64,000 nucleotides of DNA from positions 144,981-208,980 of the forward strand of contig NC_049980.1 in assembly GCF_000003815.2 (NCBI RefSeq). Reading direction: 5' to 3'. Of this stretch, positions 3,101-27,200 are shown one piece after another. Numbering within the stretch: the stretch's first letter is position 1; every line of letters starts with the position of its first letter. The DNA comes from Branchiostoma floridae. Lineage: Eukaryota > Chordata > Leptocardii > Amphioxiformes > Branchiostomatidae. The notes below the pieces were generated by a model. That model worked only from the letters and a program-made list of their open reading frames with translations, searched no databases and was not told where the DNA came from. A program made the position numbers and the translations under genes.

Positions 3101-5194
3101 AAAATTAGTCACATGCTTTATATGGTAAAAAAATATAAAAGAGAGACAGGATAGCGCTTTACCTTCTCCGGAGGCGTACATCGGGTTGGGTATACTCGCA
3201 GCGGCGTCGGTACCTGCCTGCGAATCAGTCTGTGGCTGCTGCATGGGTGCACCTGTTGTAACTGTTGGAAAATTAAAAAAAAATAGTCACATGCTTAATG
3301 TGATAAAAAAATATACAAGGGAGACAGGAACAGGGCCACGTAAGAGGACGTAAAAGCGTTTTACCTTCTCCGGAGCCGTACATAGGGTTAGGTATACTCG
3401 CAGCGGCGTCGGCACGTGCCGGCCAATTAGTCTGCTGCTGTTGCATGGGTGCACCTGTTGTAACTGTTGGAAAATTCCAAAAATTAGTCACATGCTTTAT
3501 ATGGTAAAAAAAATATAAAAGAGAGACAGGATAGCGCTTTACCTTCTCCGGAGGCGTACATCGGGTTGGGTATACTCGCAGCGGCGTCGGTACCTGCCTG
3601 CGAATCAGTCTGTGGCTGCTGCATGGGTGCACCTGTTGTAACTGTTGGAAAATTTAAAAAAAATAGTCACATGCTTAATGTGATAAAAAAATATAGAAGG
3701 GAGACAGGAACAGGGCCACGTAAGAGGACGTAAAAGCGTTTTACCTTCTCCGGAGCCGAACATAGGGTTGGGTATACTCGCAGCGGCGTCGGCACGTGCC
3801 TGCGAATCAGTCTGTGGCTGCTGCATGGGTGCACCGGTTGTAACTGTTGGAACATTTTAAAAAATCAGTCACATACTTTATATGGTAAAAAATATAGAAG
3901 CAAAACAAAAGCAGAGCGACGTAAGCTGACGTCATGACGTAAAAGCGTTCTACCTTCTCCGGAGGTGTACATAGGGTTGGGTATACTCGCAGCGGCGTCG
4001 GCACGTGCCGGCCAATCAGTCTGCTGCTGTTGCATGGGTGCACCTGTTGTAACTGTTGGAACATTTTTAAAAATCAGTTACATAGTTTACATGGTAAAAC
4101 AATATAGAAGCAAGACAAAAGCAGGATGATGTAAGCTGACGTAAAAGCGTTCTACCTTCTCTGGAGGCGTACATCGGGTTGGGTATACTCGCAGCGGCGT
4201 CGGCACGTGCCTGCCAATCAGTCTGTGGCTGCTGCATGGGTGTGGTGCCTGGAGGAAAATTACAAAATCATAAAAAAGGAACCAACGAAATGTATTTAGG
4301 AGAACACCAGTCGCTGAATGATTTTATAAAATCACAATAGAACTGTTGAAGAGTTTATATTGAAAGAAAGGTATCGAAAACAATTTTCAATTTTCATTCT
4401 ACCTTTTTGATCATATTTGAAAAACCACTCATCAATATATTATATTCATTTATGTATTATATTCATTAATGTATGCATCCATAACAACAAAAAAAGTTTC
4501 GTTCTTTTTTCTTGGTCTGATGTTGTCAATTTTTTTTACATATTTATATTCAGTAACTGTAATAGTATCATTTTATGAACAACAATCGCGTATGCGACAA
4601 ATTGTTAGTGCACATCGCACTATCCAAAGATTATTCTTTAGACTGAAGCATTTTGTCGTATTGTAATTCAATAATGACCGGTGATGACGTCATGGTAAAC
4701 GGAGTGACCAGTTAGGAAACGAGCATCGCGGTTCTGGGAAGATTTACTGTAAATGTGTAAATGTTCGCGGTGGTTTTATGTTCGCAGTTTTCGGGTTGCC
4801 AATTCACCGCGAACTTAAAACCACCGCGAACATTTTTCCATGGCAGTAAGAGACTACAGTACATGGTGCTACCGCGAACTGAAAAACAATCCTTTTCCCG
4901 CTACCGCGAACTTCAAATGCATTTACAGTACTTTTGAACGAATTTAACGCCTTATGCTCCCCATATACGGGGCTTTACTTCACCATGCGAAATGTTGGAT
5001 ACACCTCTCATTACAACATACTCCAAGCGCGATTCTCACATGATCCATATGGTGAGGTAGTTGGACCACTTATCACTCCACAGGAATAATAAGAATATTG
5101 TAATAATCTTCCAATCTAGCATCATCCAAAACCTACTTAGAAAAAAATGTCTACCTGTGTCACCTGATTGGGACTGTTGTTGCCCTCCCGGCAT
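186..5194 (-). CDS. Gene A: cytoplasmic tail of a type II receptor-like protein with NPMY exon array (3' partial)
   Basis: Ten exons can be joined in one frame on the minus strand: 5194-5155 (start, MPGGQQQSQSGDT), 4248-4156, 4052-3954, 3843-3745, 3641-3543, 3463-3365, 3261-3163, 3084-2986, 2883-2785 and 1313-186. Every junction is phase 1, with acceptors such as ttttccaacag and donors such as gtaaaa or gtaaga. Exon 10 also ends in phase 1 at GCTGGCG/gtaaga, so the next exon would lie left of the window. In paralogues B and C the exon after the same phase-1 donor encodes the membrane segment, so I infer this is an N-terminal cytoplasmic tail. Visible motifs are eight NPMY copies, one NPVY, a YTDL (Y-x-x-L) and an EPYAVRY; NPxY motifs are known to bind PTB-domain adaptors. 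The middle of exon 10 is a coding minisatellite. No globular domain is recognised. Exon joins are by eye, without transcript support. Confidence 0.68.
270..1065 (-). repeat. 18-bp coding minisatellite in gene A exon 10
   Basis: About 44 imperfect copies of an 18-base unit (plus-strand form close to cattcccggaaatgccag) lie entirely inside exon 10. On the minus strand they encode a hexapeptide array close to GNDAGT/S with G, N and D nearly fixed. The frame stays open throughout, and substitutions fall mainly on the variable positions. The array is low-complexity, acidic and Ser/Gly/Asn-rich. Other frames are also open only because the unit length is a multiple of three. Confidence 0.9.
1314..2784. 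other. Intron of gene A with two foldback elements
   Basis: No coding exon is recognised here. Two inverted-repeat structures stand out. At 1645-1714 a stretch beginning actgtccaagtccagt is answered by its reverse complement ending ggacttggacagt. At 2268-2434 the arms (cctcacatgtagcgaaaatc and its complement) flank about 70 bases. Both look like small non-autonomous foldback DNA elements. Confidence 0.6.
2268..2434. mobile_element. Foldback MITE-like element
   Basis: Two arms of roughly 45 bases, nearly perfect reverse complements, start with taccccc/ggggggta and contain cacatgtagcgaaaatcgat. The internal spacer has no coding potential. A short open frame across it is an accident of the inverted arms. 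Confidence 0.65.
2785..4248 (-). repeat. Tandem array of eight NPMY-encoding exons
   Basis: Seven copies are exactly 99 bases and the promoter-proximal one (4156-4248) is 93 bases. Each encodes a unit beginning VTTGAPMQQ and ending ASIPNPMY plus a short SGEG/SREG tail. All are symmetric phase 1-1 exons, so any number can be skipped without a frameshift. The introns (about 80-110 bases, except the longer ones) are duplicated with the exons. The pairs at 3163-3463 and 3543-3843, with flanking intron, are nearly identical, which points to a recent two-exon (about 380 bp) duplication. Confidence 0.8.
4249..5154. other. First intron of gene A
   Basis: No exon is recognised. The stretch 4390-4570 is a diverged copy of 5405-5560 (shared ctacctttttgatcat, tttatgtat, ttctttttctttgtctgat), so the region around the start exon has been locally duplicated. 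A TA-flanked MITE lies at 4747-4928. Confidence 0.5.
4747..4928. mobile_element. Tc1/mariner-type MITE (CTGTAAATG termini)
   Basis: The element starts CTGTAAATG and ends CATTTACAG, flanked by TA on both sides (4745-4746 and 4929-4930). Internally it repeats motifs such as ccgcgaac and gttcgcggtgg. A second copy of the same family lies at 27600-27797, also flanked by TA. The TA duplication is what Tc1/mariner insertion produces. It has no coding capacity. Confidence 0.8.
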
Positions 5195-7759: not shown

Positions 7760-10700
7760 ATGGCGGGGCGACATCAGCACACTCCCGACCGTCCTGCTGG
7801 CTTAGCGGGGCGAGAGCTCCCTCCCGTTCCCCCTGTTGCCGTGGCACAGCGGCTTCAGCACATACCTACCTGGAACCCTCCAGCAGGCCGAAATACCAGC
7901 GGGGAAAAGGGACGACAAGGCAAAACCAACGCACCACAGGTTGGAGACAAACAAGTAGATGCACAAGAATTCATCAATCAGCTTCACGGCAACCCTACGT
8001 ACGATACTGGAGGGGATACAGGTCAGTACCCATACTTCATTGTGTGTTATAGCCTGTCTGAATTTTTTTTCCGTCCCCAAAATTTTGAATGGAAATCCTG
8101 TTGAAGGCATGACGATCCTAGGGGGTCCGGGAGTATGCTGCCAAGGAAAATTTTGAAATCTAGACCCTCTGAAATGCTAATTCCTTTATTTTGAGGGGCA
8201 TACTTTGCTGGTAGACTCAGCTTGGTTCAATTAATGTCTTAGTATGCCCGTTTTTGTCCGTCACAGAGGATGGAATAGGCAAACTTTTTGTCCGTCCCTA
8301 GCTGCAAAAAACGGAAGGTTGGATGCTGGCTAGAACCCTGCTTCACTACGTACAAATCATTGTAGCCTCCTTCGCAGACGTCTGGAGGCTACCAGCTGTG
8401 GCGTTTATTTTTGGAGGAGCGCTTATTCGCGGTGTTCAACATGGGCTAAGGGTCTCTATGCTCGGAAGTAGCATTTTACCGCACAGAGAACCATAGCCCA
8501 TGTTGAACATCACGAATCAGTGCTACCCAAAAACATAAACGCTACCACTTCAGAAGTCTGCAGAGGAGGCTATTGAAAGAATAGGAAGCATATTTTACAG
8601 CTGTATTAGAAGCAAGAAAAGTTTAACATGTACATACTGAAATACATTAGCTAATGTGGATGTAGTAAGATATCAATTTATCACTTGTATTTCATAACCT
8701 GCTTGTAAGAGAAATAATATAATATGTTTATTGCAAGTTCTTGCCCAAGGGCTAATTTAAGGTACAAACAACATGTATAACAAGGAAAATACAAAGGCCG
8801 GTGCTAGGAACTACATTCTTTGACTATGCTGTGCTACTGAAGTGTACATTATACTGGTTTTGTTGGGTTTGACTTCTTCATTTTAGGCAGTGGAAGACGA
8901 ATTTACCCACTTCTTTTATAATGTGTGGGTTCTTTGATTTTAATAATATAATTGATTTCTCGTTGTCAGGAATAGTTAGAAAGTAAGCGTGTATTTTGGA
9001 TACACGAATAAATAGTTGGTTTCTTATATCATCATAAAAAGAAGAATTAGAGATAAAATGACTCTAGTATTCCACAGCATTTGAGGGGCAATATTTACCA
9101 ATCCTGTCAGACACAGGTAGCTTCATATATCTCCCCTTTTCTATTCCCAGGGGGGTGGGCACTAATTCTAACACTTTATTAGTCGCAATAAAAAATGGGA
9201 AAACCCGGCGGCAATCATGCGGGATCGCCCGGTGACATTGTCCCATCTCCCGGCAACGCGGAATTGCTGTCCGTAAGTGCCAGCGGCGGTGTTGGGACCA
9301 TGCCTCCCCGAAAGATGACCGAGCAAGTTGTGGTGGGTCCCGGGAGCTAGTGAGTTCATGGGCCGGCGAGAGCTGTGAAACTCCGGCGGCGATTATGCGG
9401 GGTCGCCCACCCGATGCTAGCCTTGCAATGTCCGTCACGGGCTCTAGATCGGGCGGCGAGAGCCGTGCTAAGTATGCCTCCAATGTTGGTCGGGCCCGTT
9501 GCCGATCAAGACCGCGGAGACACGCCGGCGGGGGCAGTGGCCGGCACGCAGAGCAAGGTCGCTCGGTAATGCCCGGCAGGCGGACTCGCCGCTAAGGACT
9601 CCTCCAACCTTGATCGGGCCCGTTGCCGATCGAGAGCGCGGGGACTCGCCTGCGGGGGCAGTGGCCGGCACGCCGAGCAAGGCCGCTCGGTAATGCCCGG
9701 CAGGCGGGCTCGCTGGCAGAGACTCCTCCAATGTTGGTTGGTGCCGTTGATGACCGAGAGCTGTGGCGAAACGCATGCTTTAGCGGATGCCCAGGCCTCC
9801 AGGCGCCGAGGAGAAGCCCGTAAACTCTTCCGGTCGCGTAAGGCAGGTCCCCGGTCGCGTAAGACAGGTCCCAGTGACCGCTTTGGCGGGCCGGGTGTCG
9901 GTGCCAAAGGCCGGTTGGCGCCGATCGGGGTCGACCGGGTCGGGTCCGGACAGCCGGCGGTGATCAGGTCACCAGGCCCCGGCACCCACCCCGTGGAGCA
10001 TTTTTCAAAAAAGTGCTTTACAGGGTGTCTGACCATGTCGTGGCTCGCTCAATCTACCTTGAGAGAGTGGTCGTTTTTTGACTAGCTCGGCTTTCCGCGG
10101 AGCCTGACGGGTTTCTGCCGGTGGCTGTCGAGTCCGGGATGGATCGGCAGTGACCGTGGGTGTGCGGGGAACATGCCTACGGAGAGAAAAGTCGGGATGG
10201 TCCGGTGACTTTTCCCTCTCCGGCGGTGCCAACGGACTCTGCACCGGCCGAGCTGTCAGCCGTGGGCGGGCGGTTTGTGTCTCCGACTCCAGCCGACTTC
10301 GATCGCGGTGGTGGAGTTCCCGGGCCGTCAAGGCACGAGAGAACGATGCTGCCGTGTCAGGTAGGTCCATGTGACCGCACTGGCGGACGAAGTAACGGCA
10401 CACGGGGCCGGAGTGGACCGTACCGACCCTGACCGTGTTGCAGGCATGGCGTAATACATTAAGTATTGGCCATGTATTAGCTATGGTACGGCGGTAGTAG
10501 GACCCTGACGGGTTTCTGCCGGTGGCTGTCGAGTCCGGGATGGATCGGCAGTGACCGTGGGTGTGCGGGGAACACGCCCACGGAGAGAAAAGTCGGGATG
10601 GTCCGGTGACTTTTCCCTCTCCGGCGGTGCCAACGGGCTCTGCACCGGCCGAGCTGTCAGCCGTGGGCGGGCGGTTTGTGTCTCCGGCTCCAGCCGACTT

Positions 10701-13700
10701 CGATCGCGGTGGTAGAGTTCCCGGGCCGTCAAGGCACGAGAGAACGATGCTGCCGTGTCAGGTAGGTCCATGTGACCGCACTGGCGGACGAAGTAACGGC
10801 ACACGGGGCCGGAGTGGACCGTACCGACCCTGACCGTGTTGCAGGCATGGCGTAATACATTAAGTATTGGCCATGTATTAGCTATGGTACGGCGGTAGTA
10901 GGACCCTGACGGGTTTCTGCCGGTGGCTGTCGAGTCCGGGATGGATCGGCAGTGACCGTGGGTGTGCGGGGAACACGCCCACGGAGAGAAAAGTCGGGAT
11001 GGTCCGGTGACTTTTCCCTCTCCGGCGGTGCCAACGGGCTCTGCACCGGCCGAGCTGTCAGCCGTGGGCGGGCGGTTTGTGTCTCCGGCTCCAGCCGACT
11101 TCGATCGCGGTGGTAGAGTTCCCGGGCCGTCAAGGCACGAGAGAACGATGCTGCCGTGTCAGGTAGGTCCATGTGACCGCACTGGCAGACGAAGTAACGG
11201 CACATGGGGCCGGAGTGGACCGTACCGACCCTGACCGTGTTGCAGGCATGGCGTAATACATTAAGTATTGGCCATGTATTAGCTATGGTACGGCGGTAGT
11301 AGGACCCTGACGGGTTTCTGCCGGTGGCTGTCGAGTCCGGGATGGATCGGCAGTGACCGTGGGTGTGCGGGGAACACGCCCACGGAGAGAAAAGTCGGGA
11401 TGGTCCGGTGACTTTTCCCTCTCCGGCGGTGCCAACGGGCTCTGCACCGGCCGAGCTGTCAGCCGTGGGCGGGCGGTTTGTGTCTCCGGCTCCAGCCGAC
11501 TTCGATCGCGGTGGTGGAGTTCCCGGGCCGTCAAGGCACGAGAGAACGATGCTGCCGTGTCAGGTAGGTCCATGTGACCGCACTGGCGGACGAAGTAACG
11601 GCACACGGGGCCGGAGTGGACTGTACCGGCCCTGATCGTGTTGCAGGCATGGCGTAATGCATTAAGTATTGGCTATGTAACCGAGACGGGCCTGCTTGGC
11701 CGGCGGGGGACTTTTAACCCGGCACCCGAGGCCCACCCCTCTCGGTGGGGCTCGCCGGCAAGAACTCCTCCAATGTTGGTCGGGCCCGTTGCCGATCAAG
11801 ACCGCGGAGACACGCCGGCGGGGGCAGTGGCCGGCACGCCGAGCAAGGTCGCTCGGTAATGCCCGGCAGGCGGACTCGCCGGTAAGGACTCCTCCAATCT
11901 TGATCGGGCCCGTTGCCGACCGAGAGCGCGGGGCCTCGCCTGCGGGGGCAGTGGCCGGCACGCCGAGCAAGGCCGCTCGGTAATGCCCTGCAGGCGGGCT
12001 CGCTGGCAGAGACTCCTCCAATGTTGGTTGGTGCCGTTGATGACCGAGAGCCGGGTCGGGTCCGGACAGCCGGCGGTGATCAGGTCACCAGGCCCCGACA
12101 CCCACCCCGTGGAGCGTTTTTCAAAAAAGTGCTCTACAGGGTGTCTGACCATGTCGTGGCTCGCTCAATCTACCTTGAGAGAGTGGTCGTTTTTTGACTA
12201 GCTCGGGAAACGGCAGCGAGTGGCGAGTGATCGCACACTCTCTCGCCAGTCGTTTTGCTGCCCCGCCGACCAGGCGGCCACTCCCAGCGAGGGCAGCCGG
12301 AGGTCGACATCCTACTTGTCGGCGGTTTTCATAAGTAGCACCTCGGACACTTCCTCCGCGGAGGCTGAGTCTGGGTCCACCGCCATTTCTACCTGCGTTG
12401 CCAAACAGTGTCTAATTGTGGCACACCTCGTTTTTGAGACAGGAGAGGTGAAGTGATACAGCCTGCATTCTTAGCCGCAAGACAAGTTCTTGTTGTCGTT
12501 GAGCAAGAACGTGAGCTCGTGGTATGGAGCGGGCGGTCCGCCCGCACCGAACCACTCTTGGAACGTAGTCGGGCCCGTAAAAAGCGCGGGCCCCACGTTC
12601 GGGCGCCTTGAGTGCGCGCCCGTCGTTCCTACTTGCCTTTATGAGGCGCCAGTCGTTTTGCTACCCCGCCGACCAGGCTGCCACTCCCCGCGAGGGCAGC
12701 CGGAGGTCGACAACCGGCTAGGAAGGCGGCCGTTCCTCCGTTCCTGCGGGCGAGGACGTCCGTGCCGAGGGCGTCCGGAAGCAGCGCCGGGGCCGGCCTC
12801 CGCGGAGGCAGCGCCCGGGTCAACCAGGGACCCAAACGGCGACGGCTCGCCCCTTCCGTCTGCGTGCGAGTACGCCTTGCGGTCTTGGCAGTTCGAGACC
12901 CGGCCGTCCGTCTGCTCGGCAGACGCGTCGGTCGTGAGAGTGCGGGACCGTTCCCTCGCGGGGACGGCTCGGGCGTTGAAGGGAAGCAACGGTCAGGTGT
13001 GGTCGGGAGTTCTGCGCTCAGGCTCCCGTGGGTTTGCGGCACCGCTGCGCATTCCCAATTTACTGTAGCTACGGACTTTGGCGGTGGCGGTTCTCGGGTG
13101 CTTGGCGCGGTCCCGGTCGAGACGCCTAGAGCGTCTCCCGGCGCGACTGTGACGCCCGCCCGCCTTGCCACCAGGGCGTCCTCGCTACCTGGTTGATCCT
13201 GCCAGTGGTCATATGCTTGTCTCAAAGATTAAGCCATGCACGTGCAAGTTCAACTGTCCCAGTGAAACTGCGAATGGCTCAGTAAATCAGTTATGGTTCC
13301 TTTGATCGTCACATCCTACATGGATAACTGTGGTAATTCTAGAGCTAATACATGCGGAAGAAGCGCCGACCTCACGGTTTGGCGTGCATTTATTTAGACC
13401 AAGATCCAACCAGGGGTTCGCCCTGGTCCTTTGGTGACTCTGGATAACCCAGCCGATCGCACGGTCTTCGGACCGGCGACAGATCATTCGAATGTCTGCC
13501 CTATCAACTATCGATGGTAGGTTCTGTGCCTACCATGGTGGCAACGGGTGACGGGGAATCAGGGTTCGGTTCCGGAGAGTTAGCCTGAGAAACGGCTAAC
13601 ACATCCAAGGAAGGCAGCAGGCGAGCAAATTACCCACTCCCGACTCGGGGAGGTAGTGACGAAAATAACAATACGGGACTCTTTCGAGGCCCCGTAATTG

Positions 13701-16700
13701 GAATGGGTACGCTTTAAATCCTTTAACGAGGATCTATTGGAGGGCAAGTCTGGTGCCAGCAGCCGCGGTAATTCCAGCTCCAATAGCGTATATCAAAGTT
13801 GTTGCGGTTAAAAAGCTCGTAGTTGGATCTTGGGACCGGGCTTGCGGTCCGCCGCGAGGCGTGTCACTGCTCGTCCCCGGCCTTTCCTGCCGGATTCTCC
13901 CCGGTGCTCTTCACTGAGTGCCTCGAGGTACCGGAGCGTTTACTTTGAAAAAATTAGAGTGTTCAAAGCAGGCCTGGCGCCTGAATTGTGGTGCATGGAA
14001 TAATGGAATAGGGCCTCGGTTCCTATTTCGTTGGGTTTCGGAACGTGAGGTAATGATCAAGAGGGACGGACGGGGGCATTCGTATTGCGGCGGGAGAGGT
14101 GAAATTCTTGGATCGCCGCAAGACGAACCACTGCGAAAGCATTTGCCAAGAATGTTTTCATTGATCAAGAACGAAAGTTGTGGGCGCGAAGGCGATAAGA
14201 CACCGCCCTAGTCACAACCATAAACGATGCCAACCAGCGATCCGCCGGCGTTGCTTCGGTGACCCGACGGGCTGCTCCCGGGAAACCTGAGTTTTCGGGC
14301 TCCGGGGGAAGTATGGTTGCAAAGCTGAAACTTGAAGGAATTGACGGAAGGACACCACCAGGAGTGGAGCCTGCGGCTTGATTTGACTCGACACGGGGAA
14401 ACTCACCCGGCCCGGACACAGTAAGGATTGACAGATTGCGAGTTCTTTCTTGATTCTGTGGATGGTGGTGCATGGCTGTTGACGGGGGTTGCTCTAGCTC
14501 TGGTTCGGCGATCCCGCTCGATCTCGCCGTAACTAGAGGTACCAGCTGGCTGTTAGCCAAAGACGAGATGGAGCAATTACGGTCTGTGATGCCCTTACAT
14601 GTCCGGGACCACACGCTCGCTACAATGAAGGCATCAGCGAGTGTTTCGCCTTCGCCGAAAGGTGCGGGTAACCTGCTGAACCGCCTTCGTGATAGGGACT
14701 GGGAATTGGAATTAATTCCCATGAACGAGGTATTCCCAGTAGATGCGTGTCATCAGCACGCGTTGATTAAGTCCCTGTCCTTTGTACACACCGCCCGTCG
14801 TTACTACCGATTGAATGGTTTTGTGAGGTCGGCCCTCTTTGGCAACCGCCGGGAGGATCGCTGAGAAACCGATCAAACTTGATCATTTAAGGGAAGTAAA
14901 ACTTGTAACGGTTTCCGTAGGTGAACCTGCGGAAGGTTCATTACCATACAAAGTAGACACTCGTGTCTACTTGTACACACCTCGTGGCAAGGAGCGGGCG
15001 GTGCCCCTGGCCTCCCACCCCGACCCACTCTTCCTTACCGCCTGGACAAGGTGGCGCTCCGACGGTGCTCTCGCGTCAATCGCTTGTCGTCCGTCTTAAG
15101 ACGGCGGCGAGCGCAGGCGGAGAGTCAGGGGCGGGGCGGGACCCGGCAGCTCCCTTGGAACGTTGGTCGGGCGCCTTGAGTGCGCGCCCGTCGTTCCCCA
15201 GACTCAATCAGCGAGCCGCTCCGAGTAGCCTGGTCGAGGACGGAGTCAGGTCCTCCCGGCGAAAAGTTTAGGGCGGGCGAGCGAAAATGGGCACCTATGT
15301 CCTGGCGGAGGGGCGTCGCGTCGCGGGTTTGCGCGGAATGGGGTCGCGGTTTAGTCTCACGGCGGGGCCTAGGTGAGACGGCTCTTCCCCGGCACCCCGG
15401 CTTGGCGTTTCGGTCTCTGACTCGATGCAATCGGTCTTGCGGACGAGTGACCTAACCTTAAGCGTCGGACTTCGAGCGGGCGTCCCGCGGTCCAAGGCCT
15501 CCTTTGGGCAGAGGGGAGGACTGCTGTCTCGGTCCCGCCGGCCAGCCACCGGCGGTCTCGACCGGATGCTAAACTCCCCGAGGTCTTAAAGAGAAGGGCG
15601 GGCGTCACCGTCCCCTCTGCGTCTAACCGGGTTCGGCCGGCAGGGATGCTCAGGGGGCGTGAGGCGGTCTTCGCAGCGGGTCCCGGTTCGCGGAGCGACC
15701 CCCAGCCCTTCCGCTCGTTTGCGCCCTTCACCACGAAGGGCACCTTCCACGTCTCGGAAACGATAGTGCCGAAAGACAGGCTTTCTATGTGTTCAGCTTC
15801 CTGGCGGAGACGCTCTCCCCGGTAGAGACTGTGCTCTGTAGAATGTCTTCCCTGCGAGCCCGTGTCACGGGTGTCCAGGGGGGCACCCCGCGATACTGGG
15901 GTGTCTCCGCCGATAAGAAGATCGGAGGGACTACAGGGTTACGATGCTGTACGAAGGCAGGGGTAGGTGCGCGGGCCGGGCCTGTTGAAGACCAGACGTC
16001 CGGCGGGGGCGGTGACCGGCGCCCCGAGCTCGCCGCTCGGTAATGCCCGGCAGGCGGGCTCGCCGGTTAAGACTCCTCCAATGTTGGTCGGGCCCGTTGC
16101 CGACCAAGACCGAGGGGACACGCCGGCGGAGGCCGGGCGGGTGCCCCGAGCAACCCTGCTCGGTAATACCCGGCAGGCGTTCCTCGCCGGCAAGAACTCC
16201 TCCAATGTTGATCGGGCCCGTTGTCGACCAAGACCGCGGGCGCACGCCGGCCGGGGCAGTGGCCGGCGCCCCGAGCAGGGCCGCTCTGTAATGCCCGGCA
16301 GGCGTGCTCGCCGGCAAGAACTCCTCCAATGTTGATCGGGCCCGTTGCCGACCAAGCCTGAGGAGAAACGCCGGCGGGGGCAGTGGCCGGCACGCTGAGC
16401 AAGGCCGCTCGGTAATGCCCGGCAGGCGGGCTCGCCGGCAAGAACTCCTCCAATGTTCGTCGGGCCCCTTGCCGACGGAGAGCCCGGGGGCACGCCGGCG
16501 GGGGCAGTGGCCGGCACGCTGAGCAAGGCCGCTCGGTAATGCCCGGCAGGCGGGCTCGCCTGCAAGAACTCCTCCTATGTTCGTCGGGCCCCTTGCCGAC
16601 GGAGAGCCCGGGGGCACGCCGGCGGGGGCAGTGGCCGGCACGCTGAGCAAGGCCGCTCGGTAATGCCCGGCAGGCGGGCTCGCCGGCAAGAACTCCTCCT

Positions 16701-19700
16701 ATGTTCGTCGGGCCCCTTGCCGACGGAGAGCCCGGGGGCACGCCGTCGGGGGTAGTGGCCGGCACGCTGAGCAAGGCCGCTCGGTAATGCCCGGCAGGCG
16801 GGCTCGCCGGCAAGAACTCCTCCAATGTTGGTCGGGCCCCTTGCCGACGGAGAGCCCGGGGGCACGCCGGCGGGGGCAGTGGCCGGCACGCTGAGCAAGG
16901 CCGCTCGGTAATGCCCGGCAGGCGGGCTCGCCGGTAAGGACTCCTCCGATCTTGGTCGGGGTCGAGTCCGGACAGCCAGCGGTGATCAGGTCACCAGGCT
17001 CCGGCACCCACCCCGTGGAGCGTTTTTCAAAAAAGTGCTTTACAGGGTGTCTGACCATGTTGTAGGTCGCTCAATCTACATTGAGAGAGTGGACGTTTTT
17101 TGACCTGTTCGAAGTCAGCCAGCCTTCCGCGGACCCTGACGGGTTTCTGCCGATGGCTGGCCAGTCCGGGACTGGTCGACAGGGACCGTGGCTGAGCGGG
17201 CAAGATTTCCGCACGGTGAAAAGACGGGCTTGCCCGGTGACTTTTCCCTGTTTGGCGGGTCCAACGGGCTTTGCACCGGGCAGCGGTGAAGCCTTGGGCG
17301 GGCGGTGTGTGACCTTTGCACCGCCCGATTGCAATCGTGTCAGAGGAAGCCCCGGGCTGGCCATGCGAGCGAGCACGATGCGGCGGTGGCAGGAAGGTCC
17401 CGCCGAGCCTCGAGGTGACGCCAAGGCACGGTTCCTTTGTACAGGCCTTGTTACATCGGATGCATGACCGGATGTCGGCCATAACGGTGACCGGCAGCTC
17501 ACGGCGGCGGAACGAGGTCGGCGGCGGTTGGAGGCGCCTCTCGCCGCCGATGACTACCTCGTAGCGGGCGCCGTGTCCACCACAGGCGGGCGCAGCGCGC
17601 TTTTTTCGGCCTAAGTTCGGCCTCCCGGTGCCGAGACCAAGCCCGAGACCGTGTCTCGGTGGTTTTTCAAAAAAGTGCTCTACAGGGTGTCTGACCATGT
17701 CGTGGGTCGCTCTGCCTACCTAGGTAGCGCGCGTAGTCCAGTGGTTAGCGGCCTTGCCTCTGGAACTAGAAGCCGTGGGTTCGATCCCGGCTGTGTCGTT
17801 CACCCGACATGCACGCTACCGGAAAGGGTTGCAGTCCTTAGGACAGGACGTTAAGCCGTGGTCCATTGTTCATGGTAGGGCGATTGATCTGTGAGCTGTT
17901 GTGGGATGTTGATTTGATTGCTCACGGACCAATAAGGAGGGGAATGTTCGTATGTTTTAGGAGATGGCAAGCGGGGACGACGAAGAGATAGAGGAGGACA
18001 TTGAAATGTATCTCCGGGAAGCAGCGGTGGCTGAGAGAGCCGAGGCGGCCGGGGCGAATGGAACTGTTGGGCAGAATATCGCTGGGGAGGTCGACAGCGA
18101 CGACAGCGACGATTTTGACTTGTATTCCGTCACGAAGCAGGTCAGAGGTGCCCGAGTCGGGGAGTTTTCACGACGGAACAAAGCGAGGGGTCGAGCTGAA
18201 CGGCCGTGGGCATCCGTCAGTGCCGGTGAGGTTCATCCGTACAAGCCCCAGAAATTCAGGGCACCCGGGCCCGTCGGCCCGAGGCGAGCCGAGGACAACC
18301 GGAATGAACTGTCTTTCTTTCTGGAGGTGTTGAACCAGTATCTTATCCGGTATATCGTGCGTTGCACCAATAGGTACGCCCGGCAGAGGCGAAGGGTATT
18401 CCGCAAAGAAAGGCGCTCGCGTTGGTCACCCACCTCGACCACCGAGCTGAAAGCCTTTTTGGGCTGCATGATATGCGCCGGCTACACGTACCAACCGAGA
18501 CTCGATTTGTACTGGTCTGATGACGATGACGTTGGGTGTACGCTGATGAAAAGGACTTTTCCTTCTCATCGTTTTCGTCAAATCTTGCGGTACCTTCACT
18601 ACTCCCCCGAAGGGTTCTATCCTCCTGGCAGCGAGCGTCTGAAGAGTTTTAAAGCAAGGGAGAAGTTGGGCCGAGTTATGAAGGTACGCAAAGTTATGGA
18701 GAGGGTCAGTCGGAATAGTAGCCGTGCCCGCCATGTCGGCGAGCATCTCGTAGTTGACGAAGCGACAGTAGCGTTTAGGGGAAGGCACAGTCTTCGGCGC
18801 TACAACCCTTCGAAGCCGACAAAGTATGGATACTGTCTCCGAGCTCTGGCTGAGACAGACGGCTACATATTGTCCGACGAAGTGTGTGGAGGGCGTGTGG
18901 ACCCAGAGGACATGTCGCCGGACGAAAGATGCATGCACGGCATTGGTGACGAATATGTCAGCCCTCTTGATCTGAAGCCCGCCCGAGTCGTCAATAGACT
19001 GACGATGCCATTTCAGGGATGCTACCGCACCGTTTATTGCGATTCCTACTACACAGGAGTCCAACTGGCAGATTACCTTTTCACCAAAGACACTTACATT
19101 GTGGGGACGGTGAGACGAAATGCGTCAGGCCTACCGACGGAAGGGCATCCCGTTCCACGCAAACCTAGGCCTGGGCCAGGCAGGCCGCCATTGCTGAAGT
19201 TCCCAGACCCCTATCCTAAGAGTGTACCGAGAGGCACTTCTGTCAGGTACCACGACGGGCCGGTAACGGTTGTGAAATGGCAAGACACCAAATCGCTCAT
19301 ACTGCTTTCTACGGGAACTAGTGTCTGTGCTCCCGACGAACTAACCACCAGGCGATGCAAGGGTCCCAGTGGTGCTACCCGACTAGAGGTGACATGTCCT
19401 GCAGCGATGAACATGTACAATCTCCACTACAAGGCGGTGGACACAGCCGACCAGCTCCGGGCAGGGTACGAATTCGGTCGGCCTTCGAAGAAATGGCACA
19501 GGCAAATCTTCTGGTACGCCATGAACAAAGCTGTGGTGAACGCCTTCTTGAACTGGAAGATATACACTGCTGGCAGACAGGATCTCCCAGCACATAGGGT
19601 TGCCCAGCTGAGCTTTCGACGGGCGTTAGTGCGGCAGCTAATCGGCAATTTCTCCGCAAGGCACCGAACACCCACTGCGAGCGTGGCCCTGCCAAGAGTC

Positions 19701-21749
19701 ATCGGCAACCACCGGCAGATAAGCCAAGGGAAACCCACTAAAGCCTGTCGTTACTGCGCAAAAGCTGGCCGTCATATGCCACGAGCGAAACGGTGCAGAC
19801 CGTTCGAGACTGTCTACAAATGCGAGATGTGCAACGTGTCCGTATGCTACGTCAGTTTGCGCCCCGAGTGTTGGCGTGAGCACTTGCAGGACATGCAGGG
19901 CGATGCATAGATGGTTTAGGACCGAGGAAAGTGTGTTGCAAGACCGGCCAAATGTTGTAAAGTTACTGGGAGAAGATGCGATTCTGTCCGGTGGCAACTT
20001 TGTGTCTAACCGGCAACTACCGATAATCCGACTTGTAAAGTTTTAGGACTAAGGAAAATGTGTTGCAAGACCGGCCAAAGGTTGTAAAGTTACTGGGAGA
20101 AGATGCGATTCTGTCCGGTGGAAACTTTGTGTCTAACCGGCAACTACCGATAATCCGACTTGTAAAGTTATAGGACTAAAGAAAATGTGTTGCAAGACCG
20201 GCCAAAGGTTGTAAAGTTACTGGGAGAAGATGCGATTATGTCCGGTGGAAACTTTGTGTCTAACCGGCAACTACCGATAATCCGACTTGTAAATTTATAG
20301 GACTAAAGAAAATGTGTTGCAAGACCGGCCAACGGTTGTAAAGTTACTGGGAGAAGATGCGATTCTGTCCGATGGCAACTTTGTGTCTAACCGACAAATA
20401 CCGATACTCTGCGTAATAAAGTGTTAATTCATTCAGTCATCCATCCATCCATCAATCCACCCATTCATCCATTCATTCATCCATCCATCCATCTATCCGT
20501 CCATTCATTCATTCATCTATTCATTCATTCATTTATTCCTTGAATGGGTTCTAGCTGTATGTAGGGTGTTGAGATATGATATTCCGATATCTGTAAAGCT
20601 TGTGCGAAAAGTCTCTTTTTATAAAGAATCTGAAGCGAACTTAAGGTAACATTCCATCGTTTCTGTGTTGCAGACTACGAAGCCATAGATGATGATGATT
20701 GGTGCATGCGAGCACGTGACTTTCTGACCTGCTCTCGACTGTTCAGCGGTGTCAAGGCAATTGTCGTCATGGCAACGCTGACGATATCCCTGATACTCAT
20801 CGTGATGCCGTTTACCACTCCACGTCCGGATTTTGATATGGTGAGTATTCATCATATCGTTTTTATATTGTAAAATTTACAAAACATGATAACGTCACAA
20901 TCGATCACGTGGTTGATGTTAATGTTGCAATCAAAACAAATGCTTTACAAAAGCACATCGAAAATTTATATGCAGACAAACAAAGCAAAAGACAAAAAAC
21001 AAAGTAAGGTACTACACACTAACAGACATGATACGAAATATAACCAAAAAAATATGTATATATACTGGTAGATTGTGAGCAGTTTCTCCGTGTCAAACTG
21101 GTTTCCTGGAAGATTGGTTACTTTGAATCTCTTGGTTTAATGAGTAATTGAACATGCTGTTTAAGTTTGGCGTTGTATGGATCTGATAGTAATGAGAAAA
21201 CTGTACCTTCATGATAAATGAACATTAGCATGAAGATCATTAAGGTCTGTGACAAATCTGTATATTGTTACATATTACAACGTTATGTTGTGTTCTGTAG
21301 ATTATGTCTACTAGCTTTAGTGATATTTTGTGCGACGGTAAAACCAATAAACCAAATGTTTCTCTTTTTTTTTTTGACAACAGCTGGAGAAGCAATCGGC
21401 CTTGACCAGTCGTCTGCAGGGTCAACTGTCGATTCTTGAGCAACGTCTCGAGAACCGAACAGCGCTCCTGAAGGATCTGAAGTCAAGCCACGCCCAGCAA
21501 TCATCGATGTTCAGCCGCTTGGAGGACCAAGTATCGTCCCTTGGAGAACATCTCGACAACCGCACTGCACTGACCAAACGCCTGGGGGACCAAGTATCAA
21601 CCCTTGAAGAACGCCTCGTTAACCGCACTGCACTGATCAGCCGCCTGGAGGACCGAATGTCGCTCCTTGAGAAAGATAGTCCTGTCGTGGTCGAGCGAAA
21701 CCACGAAAATAAGAAGACCTTTGTCATTGACTTGTCAAAATTTGGGTGA
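7760..21749 (+). CDS. Gene B: type II membrane protein with NPTY tail and coiled-coil stalk, no Link module
   Basis: Three exons join in frame: 7760-8021 (ends phase 1 at ACAG/gtcagt), 20674-20840 and 21384-21749 (stop TGA). With the ATG at 7760 (G at +4) the product is 264 residues; an in-frame ATG at 7661 is possible, and the paralogue in gene C starts much later, so the start is uncertain. NPTY lies at about residues 78-81. An acidic segment and an RARDF motif precede a membrane helix at about 116-134. The rest is a coiled coil of 21-residue (three-heptad) repeats with three NRT glycosylation sequons. Compared with gene C the stalk runs into a stop instead of splicing to a Link exon, and AATAAA occurs at 22391. 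The first intron is 12.65 kb and contains the whole 11.26 kb piggyBac/rDNA block. Confidence 0.65.
8361..8577. mobile_element. Foldback MITE in gene B intron 1
   Basis: Outer arms tagcctccttcgcagacgtc and gacttc(t)gcagaggaggcta are inverted. Inner segments containing gtgttcaacatgggct and agcccatgttgaacatcacg are also reverse complements. It has no coding capacity. Confidence 0.65.
8720..9167 (-). other. Probable 3' remnant of a LINE-type retroelement
   Basis: The stretch near 8723-8760 (tttattgcaag, cccaagggcta) resembles the 3' end of the LINE fragment at 45718-45810. A short minus-strand open frame ending near 9064 ([18 protein letters not shown]) could be a LINE remnant, but I cannot assign it firmly. 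This AT-richer DNA ends abruptly at the left terminus of the piggyBac block. Confidence 0.3.
9443..9750 (+). repeat. 124-bp spacer-like repeats, first array (two full copies)
   Basis: The anchor taatgcccggcaggcg occurs at 9567 and 9691, a period of 124. Units also contain ctcctccaa(t/c)(g/c)ttg, tcgggcccgttgccg and gggggcagtggccggcac. The same unit recurs in the two later arrays. GC content is very high. Open frames across these repeats on both strands are artefacts. Confidence 0.85.
9998..10090 (+). promoter_or_regulatory. Recurring spacer motif, copy 1 (possible Pol I promoter or terminator element)
   Basis: A block of about 90 bases beginning tttttcaaaaaagtgct and continuing acagggtgtctgaccatgt to the T-run cgttttttgac is present four times in the element (also 12113-12205, 17020-17105 and partially 17660-17715). 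Each is preceded by a ccccgtggagc-type sequence or a variant. A conserved motif next to spacer repeats suggests a duplicated spacer promoter or terminator; this is inference from position only. Confidence 0.4.
10103..11682 (+). repeat. 401-bp tandem repeat, four copies
   Basis: The anchor cctgacgggtttctgcc occurs at 10103, 10504, 10905 and 11306, exactly 401 bases apart. Copies differ at only a handful of positions, so the array has been recently duplicated or homogenised. A related sequence follows the third spacer-motif copy at about 17134. The layout resembles the repeated units of an rDNA intergenic spacer. The 90- and 107-residue open frames repeated across it have no support as genes. 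Confidence 0.9.
11757..12045 (+). repeat. 124-bp spacer-like repeats, second array
   Basis: The anchor taatgccc occurs at 11857 and 11981, 124 apart, in the same unit as the first array. It is followed by a second copy of the ccggacagccggcggtgatc block that also precedes spacer-motif copies 1 and 3. Confidence 0.85.
12113..12205 (+). promoter_or_regulatory. Recurring spacer motif, copy 2
   Basis: Near-identical to copy 1 at 9998-10090 through gaccatgtcgtggctcgctc and on to the T-run. This is the copy closest upstream of the 18S-like gene, about 1 kb away, so it is the best placed to act as a transcription start or spacer terminator for it. Function is not demonstrable from sequence. Confidence 0.4.
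12206..13184 (+). other. 5' external-transcribed-spacer-like region
   Basis: GC-rich sequence without a credible gene directly precedes the 18S start. A segment of about 65 bases (gccagtcgttttgct, ccccgccgaccagg) is repeated at about 12243 and 12649. Part of it (gggcgccttgagtgcgcgcc) also recurs after the 18S copy at about 15168. Long open frames on both strands reflect high GC. Confidence 0.5.
13185..14943 (+). rRNA. Divergent 18S rRNA gene copy (probably not a normal ribosomal 18S)
   Basis: It begins TACCTGGTTGATCCTGCCAG and ends with gtaggtgaacctgcggaagg followed by ttcatta, giving 1759 bases. Clear eukaryotic 18S landmarks are present, including gccagcagccgcggtaattc (the 530 loop) and gtacacaccgcccgtcg. 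It departs from near-universal positions: aactt(g)aaggaattgacgg, ttgactc(g)acacgg, and the block normally reading gtcgtaacaagg is cttgtaacgg. After catggctgtt (14480) the conserved segment that normally carries ggttaattccgataacgaac is absent. A helix near 14177-14182 and 14213-14218 shows paired changes (GTTGTG with CACAAC). No 5.8S or 28S follows. Comparisons are with 18S consensus recalled from general knowledge. Confidence 0.85.
14944..16042 (+). other. ITS-like region without 5.8S or 28S
   Basis: GC-rich sequence follows the 18S 3' end. I looked for the 5.8S landmark around gatgaagaacgcagc and for 28S landmarks and found none before the repeats resume. The motif gggcgccttgagtgcgcgcc near 15168 is a duplicate of upstream spacer sequence at about 12600. 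No protein gene is recognised. Confidence 0.55.
16043..16965 (+). repeat. 124-bp spacer-like repeats, third array (eight anchors)
   Basis: The anchor taat(g/a)cccggcagg occurs at 16041, 16164, 16289, 16413, 16537, 16661, 16785 and 16909, spacing 123-125. The later copies are nearly identical, the first three more diverged. It is the same unit as the arrays upstream of the 18S-like gene, so that gene is flanked on both sides by spacer-like repeats, as in an rDNA unit. Confidence 0.9.
17020..17105 (+). promoter_or_regulatory. Recurring spacer motif, copy 3
   Basis: The tttttcaaaaaagtgct block is followed by a variant (gaccatgttgtaggtcgctc) and the gacgttttttgacc T-run. It is again followed by ccctgacgggtttctgccg, as at the start of the 401-bp array. 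A partial fourth copy lies at 17660-17715 directly before the SINE-like head. Confidence 0.4.
17722..17890 (+). mobile_element. tRNA-derived SINE-like head upstream of the transposase
   Basis: A-box-like tagtccagtggttagcggc and B-box ggttcgatccc are spaced as in a tRNA-derived Pol III promoter. The anticodon and T arms do not pair well, so it is not a working tRNA. The following ggacaggacgttaa resembles the ggataggacgttaa in the body of the SINE at 32798-33230. It ends about 75 bases before the transposase ATG. Confidence 0.6.
17964..19910 (+). CDS. PiggyBac-family transposase
   Basis: This intact 648-residue open frame is within the usual piggyBac range (about 550-650). The protein catalyses excision and insertion at TTAA. 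An acidic N-terminal region (residues 5-55) precedes the core. Catalytic aspartates fit family positions: D265 in [13 protein letters not shown]360 in CDSYYTG, D441 in WQDTK and a fourth Asp at D493/D496 in [18 protein letters not shown] (284-294) matches the usual KP.K.G motif. RPGPGRPP (402-409) resembles an AT-hook. A C-terminal cysteine-rich finger has C595, C598, C611, C620, C623, C628, C636 and H640. There is no frameshift or premature stop, so recent activity or selection is likely. The start at 17964 is the first ATG of the frame. AATAAA inside the right terminus (20415-20420) could end the transcript. Confidence 0.93.
   Translation: MASGDDEEIEEDIEMYLREAAVAERAEAAGANGTVGQNIAGEVDSDDSDDFDLYSVTKQVRGARVGEFSRRNKARGRAERPWASVSAGEVHPYKPQKFRAPGPVGPRRAEDNRNELSFFLEVLNQYLIRYIVRCTNRYARQRRRVFRKERRSRWSPTSTTELKAFLGCMICAGYTYQPRLDLYWSDDDDVGCTLMKRTFPSHRFRQILRYLHYSPEGFYPPGSERLKSFKAREKLGRVMKVRKVMERVSRNSSRARHVGEHLVVDEATVAFRGRHSLRRYNPSKPTKYGYCLRALAETDGYILSDEVCGGRVDPEDMSPDERCMHGIGDEYVSPLDLKPARVVNRLTMPFQGCYRTVYCDSYYTGVQLADYLFTKDTYIVGTVRRNASGLPTEGHPVPRKPRPGPGRPPLLKFPDPYPKSVPRGTSVRYHDGPVTVVKWQDTKSLILLSTGTSVCAPDELTTRRCKGPSGATRLEVTCPAAMNMYNLHYKAVDTADQLRAGYEFGRPSKKWHRQIFWYAMNKAVVNAFLNWKIYTAGRQDLPAHRVAQLSFRRALVRQLIGNFSARHRTPTASVALPRVIGNHRQISQGKPTKACRYCAKAGRHMPRAKRCRPFETVYKCEMCNVSVCYVSLRPECWREHLQDMQGDA
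19918..20412 (+). repeat. 127-bp subterminal tandem repeat, four copies
   Basis: Units starting aggactaaggaaaatg (first copy aggaccgagg) occur at 19918, 20045, 20172 and 20299, exactly 127 apart. They contain gcaagaccggccaa and ctaaccggcaactaccg. They lie between the transposase stop codon and the right terminus. Repeated subterminal units often serve as transposase-binding sites in other elements; that role here is inference. Confidence 0.9.
20430..20540. repeat. (ATTC/ATCC)n microsatellite
   Basis: Degenerate tetranucleotide tract of cattcatccatccatc type immediately outside the right TTAA of the piggyBac element. Confidence 0.9.
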
Positions 21750-24225: not shown

Positions 24226-27200
24226 ATGGCGCCCAGGGGAGGAGGACAAGAATCCCAAGGTCAGTACAAACACAAAATATCAAAAGGAATTTGAATGTGT
24301 CGAGAAATATCATCCATCATTTGCACATAAGACGTGATGGTACAAAACTGCAAGAAATTTCAGGAAAATGTTCCAAAGATATCATTATATTAACTACGAC
24401 ACAGTTTTAGAAATCATTTTATCACAAAACATCACACTCAGGTAAACTATTTTCAGAGCCTTCGTGTCACGTGACCTCTGATTTCTGGGCCACGAAACTA
24501 CCTTTTCTAAGCTGATGAAAAATGGCGGATTTGAAAGTCTTAACGCCAGGAAATGATATTTAATTTATTGTTTTTGTAATAATTGTTGATAAATATGATT
24601 TTCTGTACTTTTTCCATTGGTATTTTTTGGTGTACTGGGAGTTTCCTGATGCACAAGATATATGATATCATCAATCAATAGTGTTTTCAGAAAAACAGTG
24701 CAGTTTGATGAAGTTTGTGCACAATTTTTGACAGGAGTATTTCCATCAATGTTTAGCACACAATTTATAAAGTTGTACAGAAGTTACAAAATTCATGACC
24801 ACTTGAGTCTATCGACAATACAAGAAAATAAGAAAAATGTACTGAAAATATTGTACTAGTTGCTGTATTTTCAAAGGTAACCTAACGAATTCATATGACT
24901 GGTCTGACATGTGTATTTTGGGATGTGTATTGAAGAATTATGGGAAGGTAGACTTCCCCCTCCCCCTAATCTTATCTATACAGTCAAACCTGTCTTTAGT
25001 GGCCACTCAAGGGACCGGACAAATGTGGCCACTATAGACAGGTGGCCTCTGTATAGAGGTGGCAACTTGTAGATAAAATACCCAAGGGACCGACAAAAAG
25101 TGGCCACTATGGACAGGTGGCCTCTCTGTAGAGGTGGCCCCTAATGCAGGTTTGACTGTATCTGTAAATTGCAGGCATGTTCATGTTTCTATTGACACAA
25201 AAAAGGGAATATTTTGGAGCTCAAACATTCGTTCAAAAAAAACAACCCACAAATGTTATCCTACTTTGCAGACTACTCAGTGAACAAAGATGGCTTCTGT
25301 AGCCGTGCACGTGATTTTCTGTCGAACCCTTACATGGTTGCCATGACGACCGTCGTTGTGGCAATCTTGATGACGTCTGCAACACTCATCCTGGTTCTCA
25401 TCACCATTCCACAAATGGTTAGTTTCTTTTTCATCTGGCATTTTCTGTCTCATTGACGAAAAACACATGCATGAATCAGTCATTTACATTATTACTAGTA
25501 TGTACATGTGTAACGTGATGCATGTAGTTTTAAGATGTACCATGTACCATATACATATATACATTTTCTGTATACTAGTCACTAAGGCTGGGTATCGGTA
25601 CAGCGTACCGGTACAAAACCGGCTTTTCTTATTGGACCGGTCCAGAAAAACCGGATCTGAAAAAGTTAGGTGGTGGACCGGATGTTGGACCTATTAGAAA
25701 ATTAACAGATTATTTTATCAGGCATTCACGCGTTTTGGCGCTTGCAGGTACGAGGTGGAAGAAAATAACAAGAGTGGAGTAGAGTAGAGTTTATAGTAAT
25801 TTCTACCAAGTTTTACAGCCAATCGTACAGGTGCAGTTAGCGTTGTAGGATTTTAAAACGCCAGTGTGAGTCTTATACTCCACCAAACAGATTTCTTTGT
25901 AGTGAAATGGACCATTGGTATGAGTCATACTGAATCAGGCCCAGGTTCAGGTCCGGACCTGGACCTGATCCTCTGGACCTGAACCGGACCTGGACCTGAA
26001 TTTTCTGTACCGGTACCCACCCCTTCTAGTCACCATGCCGAAAAGACGACAGGAGTTTAGCCGGCAGAGGAGTAAATTGGCCGTTTATTACTTCTCTGCC
26101 GGCTAAACTCCTTCCTCGGCTTATGATACTATCTTATGCTACGCAATATCTGCTTGGAGACTAGAGAAGACTTAAATACCACTGGCAGATATGTGTCAAG
26201 GAGTATAATTGTTTTGTTCATATCTTGTAACAGGTGCAAATCCTGTCTAGTTTGGCAAACCAGACACCGACACTTCAAGCTCAAGTCCAAATCCGCTCGG
26301 ATGTGGTCAGTCGTCTGTGGGACCAACTCTTGACGCTTGAAGAGCACGTCAAGAACCGGTCAGCGCTAGTCGAACGTCTTGAAGACAACGTGTGGGCCTT
26401 TCCGGAACAGCTCAAGACCTGCTCCTTACTGGTCAGCCGTCTGGAGGGCCAAGTATCTACCCTTGAGGAACATCTCAACAACCGCTCTGCACTGACCAAA
26501 CGCCTGGAGGACCAAGTATCGACCCTTGAAGAACGTCTTGTTACCCGCTCTGCACTGATCAGCCGTCTGAAGGGCCAATTGTCGACCCTTGAGGAACAGC
26601 TGGACCAAAAGACTGCCATGTGCAAAGCAACGCCAAAACAAGGTGTGTCAGTGCAGCTTCACAGTGTAGAAGAATTACTTGGGAAATGTACACAAATAAT
26701 TAAAATACCCTTGGGTAGTCAGGCTCATCATTGATTTACAAGTAACGCTATGTTCCTATATCAGTAATAGGTATTGTTTAATTTTCTCAGGAAATATTTT
26801 CCACCTGAGGTCACCGAAGGGCAAGTACATGTACGACTTGGATGAAGCTCGGCAGGCATGCGCAGAGACGGGAGCCGTCCTCGCGTCCTCTGCCCAGCTA
26901 CACCGGGCCTGGCAGGACGGGTATGAACGTTGTGAGTGCGGATGGCTGTCGGACGGGACGGCTCGCTATCCCATGCAGGAGGCCAGGTATTTATAGACCT
27001 TTAATACGCGGCGGCCATGACAGATCGAAAACGAGGTAAATGAGGCAAACAGACAAACTTATTTGTAAAATGGGGTAGGGAATTTCCCGAGCAGCCTCGT
27101 AATCCCTGCTTCGCCTATTGAGTCAGTGAAGTCAAGCTTGCCTAAGCTTGATGTTTCTGACTTAGGGAGAAGAAATGCTGCTACAGTTATCGCTATGGGC

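Follow-up and report, generated by a model that had tools for sequence, protein, structure and literature searches.

The R1 and R2 retrotransposons are bound up with ribosomal DNA (rDNA), in which they sit without carrying it, and they encode another class of enzyme than the element described here. The piggyBac and piggyBat elements are, to our knowledge, not carriers of rDNA. The nearest precedent is Pokey of Daphnia, in which 2-5 fragments of spacer (IGS) and ITS2, ~200 and ~50 bp long, are reported; its authors suggest that these repeats exchange sequence with rDNA, and its transposase gene contains an intron of 68-84 bp and specifies N as the residue at the fourth acidic site (PMC3849761). 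A transposon with an 18S gene was not described in the literature surveyed, which comprised titles and abstract openings, with preprints and most subscription papers outside the survey. The means by which rDNA passes from one chromosome to another has long been asked about, and here a constant-ended DNA transposon with promoter-like rDNA sequence and an 18S-derived gene is found to have inserted several times.

The 64 kb stretch of DNA analysed (hereafter the window) corresponds to C2:144981-208980 of the assembly G000 (513,431,437 bp, 431 contigs), in which all genome searches were carried out. The block at 9172-20423 of the window (11,252 bp) is a piggyBac-superfamily transposon enclosing rDNA; its parts are listed in Table 1. 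It resembles Pokey in the piggyBac-type transposase, the TTAA target, the presence of rDNA-derived sequence between the left end and the transposase (here recognized from the 18S match to RF01960 and from a core shared with other 18S genes), the recombining arrays and the existence of copies outside rDNA. In contrast to the spacer repeats of Pokey, the window element contains several kilobases of such sequence, including promoter-like cores, a leader and an 18S-derived gene; thus, the 18S-derived gene and the cores inside the ends go beyond Pokey as described in the accessible part of that source. The transposases also differ, since that of the window element has D at the fourth acidic site (VDTADQ) and is encoded by a single open frame instead of one interrupted by a short intron.

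Table 1 Parts of the transposon in the window (positions in the window)
Feature	Position	Strand	Remarks
Left-border CTAA	9168..9171		The other 6 left-end matches have TTAA
Left terminal inverted repeat CACTTTATTA	9172..9181	+	Exact match search
Left subterminal G+C-rich stretch	9182..9476	+	99-100% in all 7 left-end matches
124-bp repeats, first place	9477..9761	+	
156-bp module with promoter-like core	9935..10090	+	Core from 10001
401-bp repeats	10099..11679	+	3.9 copies
124-bp repeats, second place	11751..12050	+	
156-bp module with the core nearest to 18S	12051..12206	+	Core from 12117, 1,069 nt before 18S
Leader (5' ETS-like) preceding 18S	12207..13185	+	By position; in 6 aligned copies
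18S-like rRNA gene without a conserved 3'-domain block	13186..14943	+	RF01960 1-1831, 1457.5 bits
ITS-like and following stretch	14944..15999	+	Duplicated in C15, C183 and C192, with 456-457 bp between
124-bp repeats, third place	16000..16960	+	7.8 copies
156-bp module with core	16957..17112	+	Core from 17023
Single diverged 401-type repeat	17131..17430	+	68% to reference
Core upstream of transposase	17663..17696	+	
SINE-like, tRNA-like stretch	17728..17963	+	Read from sequence; 99.6-100% in copies reaching there
piggyBac-type transposase	17964..19910	+	648 aa
127-bp subterminal repeats	19917..20406	+	3.8 copies
Right terminal inverted repeat	20414..20423	-	
Right-border TTAA	20424..20427		

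The inverted matches beside CTAA and TTAA that the first-pass annotation had taken as the ends of the element are exact: the 10 bp CACTTTATTA has no third exact match in the 64 kb, and nowhere else in the window does it occur beside NTAA with up to two mismatches. As is characteristic of the piggyBac superfamily, this short terminal inverted repeat starts with C. The letters inward of it agree only partly (GTCGCA and CGCAGA). The abrupt GC shift reported for both ends holds at the left one (0.347 to 0.600, 300 bp per side) but hardly at the right one (0.423 to 0.390).

Copies sharing both termini and TTAA borders, which the first-pass annotation had proposed to look for in the same genome, do exist. 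The left 233 bp of the window element yielded seven matches with identities of 99-100%, all sharing one starting terminus; six of them align from base 2, having TTAA where the window has CTAA. Four copies could be followed from the left to the right end, with lengths of 11,252 bp (window), 11,600 bp (C15, with a partly unreadable transposase), 9,545 bp (C10) and 13,222 bp (C183, a 120-kb contig). Three of these four are bordered by TTAA on both sides, as the target duplication of the piggyBac superfamily implies, and the window copy by CTAA and TTAA. The remaining matches are incomplete: the C3 copy retains the left end, and its transposase matches as far as nucleotide 1,133, the transposase of the C192 copy matches as far as nucleotide 492, and the C193 contig ends inside 18S. 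Since the left flank of C193 is that of C3 (1,496/1,496 nt) and the first 24 right-flank letters of a second, partial C192 copy are identical to those of C183, both contigs were excluded from the locus count, leaving five loci (C2, C3, C10, C15 and C183), among which the 1.5-kb flanks show no match to one another. Probably, C192 and C193 are split haplotype scaffolds. In these two contigs, one and the same 18S position (1252/1253) coincides with a contig end and with a 100-N gap. At C10:1232131-1241682, the left and right flanks share repeats of 80-87% identity, so that this copy lies in or beside a tandem repeat. A search with the right end returned five close copies (C2, C10, C15, C183 and C192) and seven diverged relatives.

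The intact transposase noted at first pass was confirmed. The 648-aa frame is uninterrupted and matches DDE_Tnp_1_7 (PF13843) over profile positions 4-349 of 349 with 215.8 bits, against a cut-off of 22.4. Two blocks, one of them AVDTADQ, align with the corresponding blocks of the piggyBac transposase (6x67) and include three aspartates, presumably the catalytic ones; the relationship to the piggyBac and piggyBat (9c0f) transposases extends over the catalytic core and is distant (E 4.7e-15 and 1.2e-23, respectively). The frame is open in the window, C10, C183 and a C192 copy, and transposase divergence among copies of the window family is 0.3-0.6%. Most differences among the copies alter the amino acid instead of being silent (11:1, 8:2 and 5:1), and therefore recent constraint on the transposase is not visible; judging by these changes, the window transposase may be impaired. 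In a viral collection, no locus related to the transposase, the core or an 18S 32-mer was found; a single pattern match to the transposase was unconfirmed.

The 8.8 kb between the left end and the transposase is largely rDNA. The spacer-like repeats reported between the ends could be mapped as units of 124, 401 and 156 bp, and the arrays vary among copies of the window family. Of the captured rDNA unit that had been proposed, 18S and the spacer arrays are indeed inside, but a whole unit with 5.8S and 28S is not seen: in 9000-20700, an Rfam search (E<=1) detected SSU as the sole RNA family, and the same search likewise returned SSU only for a single locus on C15, on C183 and on C192. Insertion at one TTAA site in 28S is a feature of Pokey; a 28S core probe had no match in G000, but since the search skipped common words and had no control, this negative carries no weight. 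ARAGORN found no tRNA in the SINE-like stretch.

The four possible Pol I spacer motifs listed at first pass were recovered as a 34-nt core, one copy lying before 18S, one before the transposase and two in the spacer arrays. The core pattern TTTTTCAAAAAASTGCTYTACAGGGWGTCTGACC has 36 exact matches in G000, the majority being copies of the window element, against none for the reversed control. Cores identical to the 18S-proximal core of the window also precede 18S at other places, at a distance of 663 nt (C9 and C15), 666 nt (C13) or 667 nt (C10 and C14), versus 1,069 nt in the window. The Pol I promoter is a regular part of rDNA, with copies in the spacer. Because of the constant distance to 18S and the repetition in the spacer, the core is probably the host Pol I promoter. 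No core was found near the 18S gene on C1 by the pattern search of G000. This C1 gene (C1:32000330-32002145, L055) is a canonical 18S of 1727.7 bits and could be the host's normal type; an 18S search (24 candidates) found no rDNA array in the assembly for comparison. Three 18S fragments (92-93%) lie inside 0.6 Mb at C3:4125299, 4560626 and 4693188.

Does the 18S-like gene of the window family still have the makings of an rRNA? Across the seven left-end matches, the gene is present end to end in four (window, C15, C183 and C192), extends over 1,252 nt up to the contig end in C193, is reduced to 211 nt in the C10 copy and is absent from the C3 copy. The genes of C15, C183 and C192 are 99.5-99.7% identical to that of the window, which has one extra base missing relative to them. 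Alignment with the C1 gene showed that a conserved block (CTTAGTTGGTGGAG and the following letters), which we take to be the h35-h38 region, is absent from the window, C15 and C183 genes, as are 13 nt close to the 3' terminus and the dinucleotide AA in GUAACAAGG; the C192 gene aligns with these three without gaps. Over 1,753 aligned sites, the window and C1 genes differ by 119 substitutions, with 68 gap columns in addition. Thus, the gene described at first pass as full-length is so in its extent, but not in its content. Nor is the conserved core complete: of 779 conserved columns, 34 are substituted and 28 deleted in C183. With the conserved block, the 13 nt and the AA missing, RNA from these genes is very unlikely to serve as rRNA.

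The C183 copy was mapped onto the 447 pairs of RF01960, omitting two damaged blocks chosen by the analyst (model 1290-1469 and 1700-1769). Outside this damage, 71 substitutions break 6 pairs versus 18.2 +/- 3.3 for random placement, and none of 1,000 placements reached so few; there are 3 compensatory changes versus 0.29 expected (p 0.003) and 23 changes in conserved columns versus 31.8 +/- 4.1 expected (p 0.02). For the entire gene, 13 pairs are broken and 25 deleted. The few broken pairs and the compensatory changes suggest that, beyond the damaged blocks, the sequence diverged largely under rRNA constraint. The 18S-like gene would be a captured stretch tied to the promoter-like core and, as it stands, apparently non-working as rRNA. 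The mobile ribosomal cassette envisaged at first pass is accordingly a fair description of the DNA, whereas a ribosomal function of the defective window-family 18S is unsupported.

Another important question is whether rDNA also occurs outside the window family. In addition to the window family, core and 18S occur together on C9, C10, C13, C14 and C15, and at three of these five places they lie upstream of a related transposase; the separate occurrence of the rDNA-like part, which the first-pass annotation had weighed against a single unit, is therefore seen at C13 and C14. A tblastn search with the transposase gave 45 matches, among which those on C9, C10 and C15 (62% over 593-594 residues, no stops) form a sister family. 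At all three sister loci, core and 18S are on the same strand, and 18S starts 9.5-10.9 kb before the transposase match. Because of this co-occurrence in three of three cases, 18S and the sister transposase may form one mobile unit. The 18S of the C10 sister is 1,816 nt long and scores 1732.2 bits; it differs from the C1 gene at 14 of 1,816 sites, 13 of them in model columns, and its conserved core is complete, with none of 779 conserved columns changed and no broken pairs. This canonical state applies to C10, the one sister 18S that was read; the C15 gene is 89% identical to that of the window, and 864 nt were matched on C9. A core variant (95% over 44 nt, neighbouring letters shared) lies 251 nt upstream of the C10 transposase match; the exact core just before the transposase was found at this one of the three sister loci and not on C9 or C15. 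At C13:1274564-1277004 and C14:140488-142246, core and 18S (92% and 96%, respectively, to that of the window in the matched parts) have no transposase match nearby.

Past the transposase, the C10 and C15 sisters are identical for 138 nt, up to GTAAAGAG-TTA, after which they continue with T and A, respectively, and diverge. Judged from these letters, the sister right end is similar to that of the window family and adjoins TTAT (C10) or TTAA (C15). For the left end, the pattern TTAACTCTTTACC gave 88 matches versus 53 for the reversed control, and near the sister loci just the known C15 right end was among them. A search for the sister right end over 761 nt was swamped by a SINE-like repeat located downstream of the C10 sister copy (L057:505-715), which gave 1,302 initial candidates in G000, 40 of them scored.

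The seven diverged right ends were each read ~10 kb upstream, three of these stretches being partly unreadable. The C9 relative has 401-type, core-region and SINE-type pieces (69-82%) ahead of a decayed transposase, and the C14 relative has spacer and leader pieces (68-90%); the remaining five of seven contain transposase and 127-bp pieces only. In none of the seven was 18S detected at E<=1e-4. The spacer pieces imply that the association with spacer predates the window family, while carriage of 18S is shown for the window family only and suggested for the sister family.

Taken together, the data very probably describe a unit with constant ends that has inserted at TTAA-type sites in several unrelated loci, with 18S in most copies and with the core before the transposase in the window family and at one sister locus. 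Tentatively, and with a chance only slightly below even, we assign the core a role in the element, where it would drive transcription of the transposase or give the element a nucleolar address. Homology to rDNA could also permit sequence exchange between the element and rDNA, as proposed for Pokey. Several observations count against this reading: the C1 18S has no core nearby, the exact core precedes the transposase at one of three sister loci, changes in the transposase are mostly non-silent, the C10 and C3 copies persist without 18S, and the left border in the window is CTAA.

Alternatively, the rDNA could be a passenger without any role, picked up accidentally during a stay of the element in rDNA, which is a real possibility although not what we would expect. 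Its persistence would be explained because the copies are young, as the low transposase divergence indicates, and because spacer repeats recombine; the same 18S damage is found in every full copy, 18S has been lost in the C10 and C3 copies, and Pokey has reportedly captured non-rDNA sequence as well (PMC3849761). A mere passenger does not readily account for the core preceding the transposase in both the window family and one sister locus, for the 18S that precedes the transposase at all three sister loci, or for spacer-type pieces in two of the seven old relatives.

A more far-reaching proposal, which we regard as unlikely, is that this piggyBac lineage has Pol I-promoted rRNA genes as a standing cargo: the sister family would move at least the promoter with a canonical 18S, and perhaps a complete rDNA unit, between chromosomes and thereby add usable rRNA genes, while the window family would keep the promoter as a control region along with a broken 18S. 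If so, rDNA would owe its mobility to the machinery of a DNA transposon. It is more doubtful still that the elements are simply carriers of working rRNA genes, with the sister moving an expressed canonical 18S, perhaps in a whole unit, and the window family being a decayed branch. The intact C10 18S, the core 663-667 nt upstream of 18S and the right end common to the C10 and C15 sisters are in keeping with such carriers, but the pattern search did not find a sister left end, so that rDNA with a transposon nearby would look the same; furthermore, one of three sister 18S genes was read, and neither 5.8S nor 28S was shown.

That the block is a dispersed rDNA fragment with an ordinary, shorter piggyBac inside or alongside is very improbable: although 18S without a nearby transposase match exists (C1, C13 and C14), the same two distant ends bound the rDNA part in all four copies read to the right end, none having the closer termini that the first-pass annotation had named as a counter-sign. 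Inner ends were considered and rejected, as the terminal repeat adjoins only the outer of the 19 TTAA sites in 9101-20500. An assembly artefact is scarcely credible, for despite the unreliability of C192 and C193, with their shared break in 18S and their repeated flanks, both ends and 18S occur on the chromosome-size contigs C2 and C15, and both ends on C10.

Under the preferred reading of a mobile unit whose promoter-like core may serve the element, several questions become testable, namely, whether Pol I promoters are used for a transposase, whether rDNA homology provides shelter or aids spread, and whether transposons move rRNA genes. In addition, a transposon may be the source of reads assigned to 18S in a genome of this kind.

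In the rest of the window, 10 of the 72 listed frames (host genes) were compared with Pfam, and none exceeded the curated cut-off; the frame 26231-26734 has weak coiled-coil matches only, below the cut-off. Tandem repeats of ~202 and ~380 bp occupy 2778-4242, and two 63-bp arrays with similar letters are found at 21511-21654 and 26404-26598. Finally, a telomere-like CCCTAA array of 10.5 copies lies at 63934-63996, ~209 kb inside contig C2.
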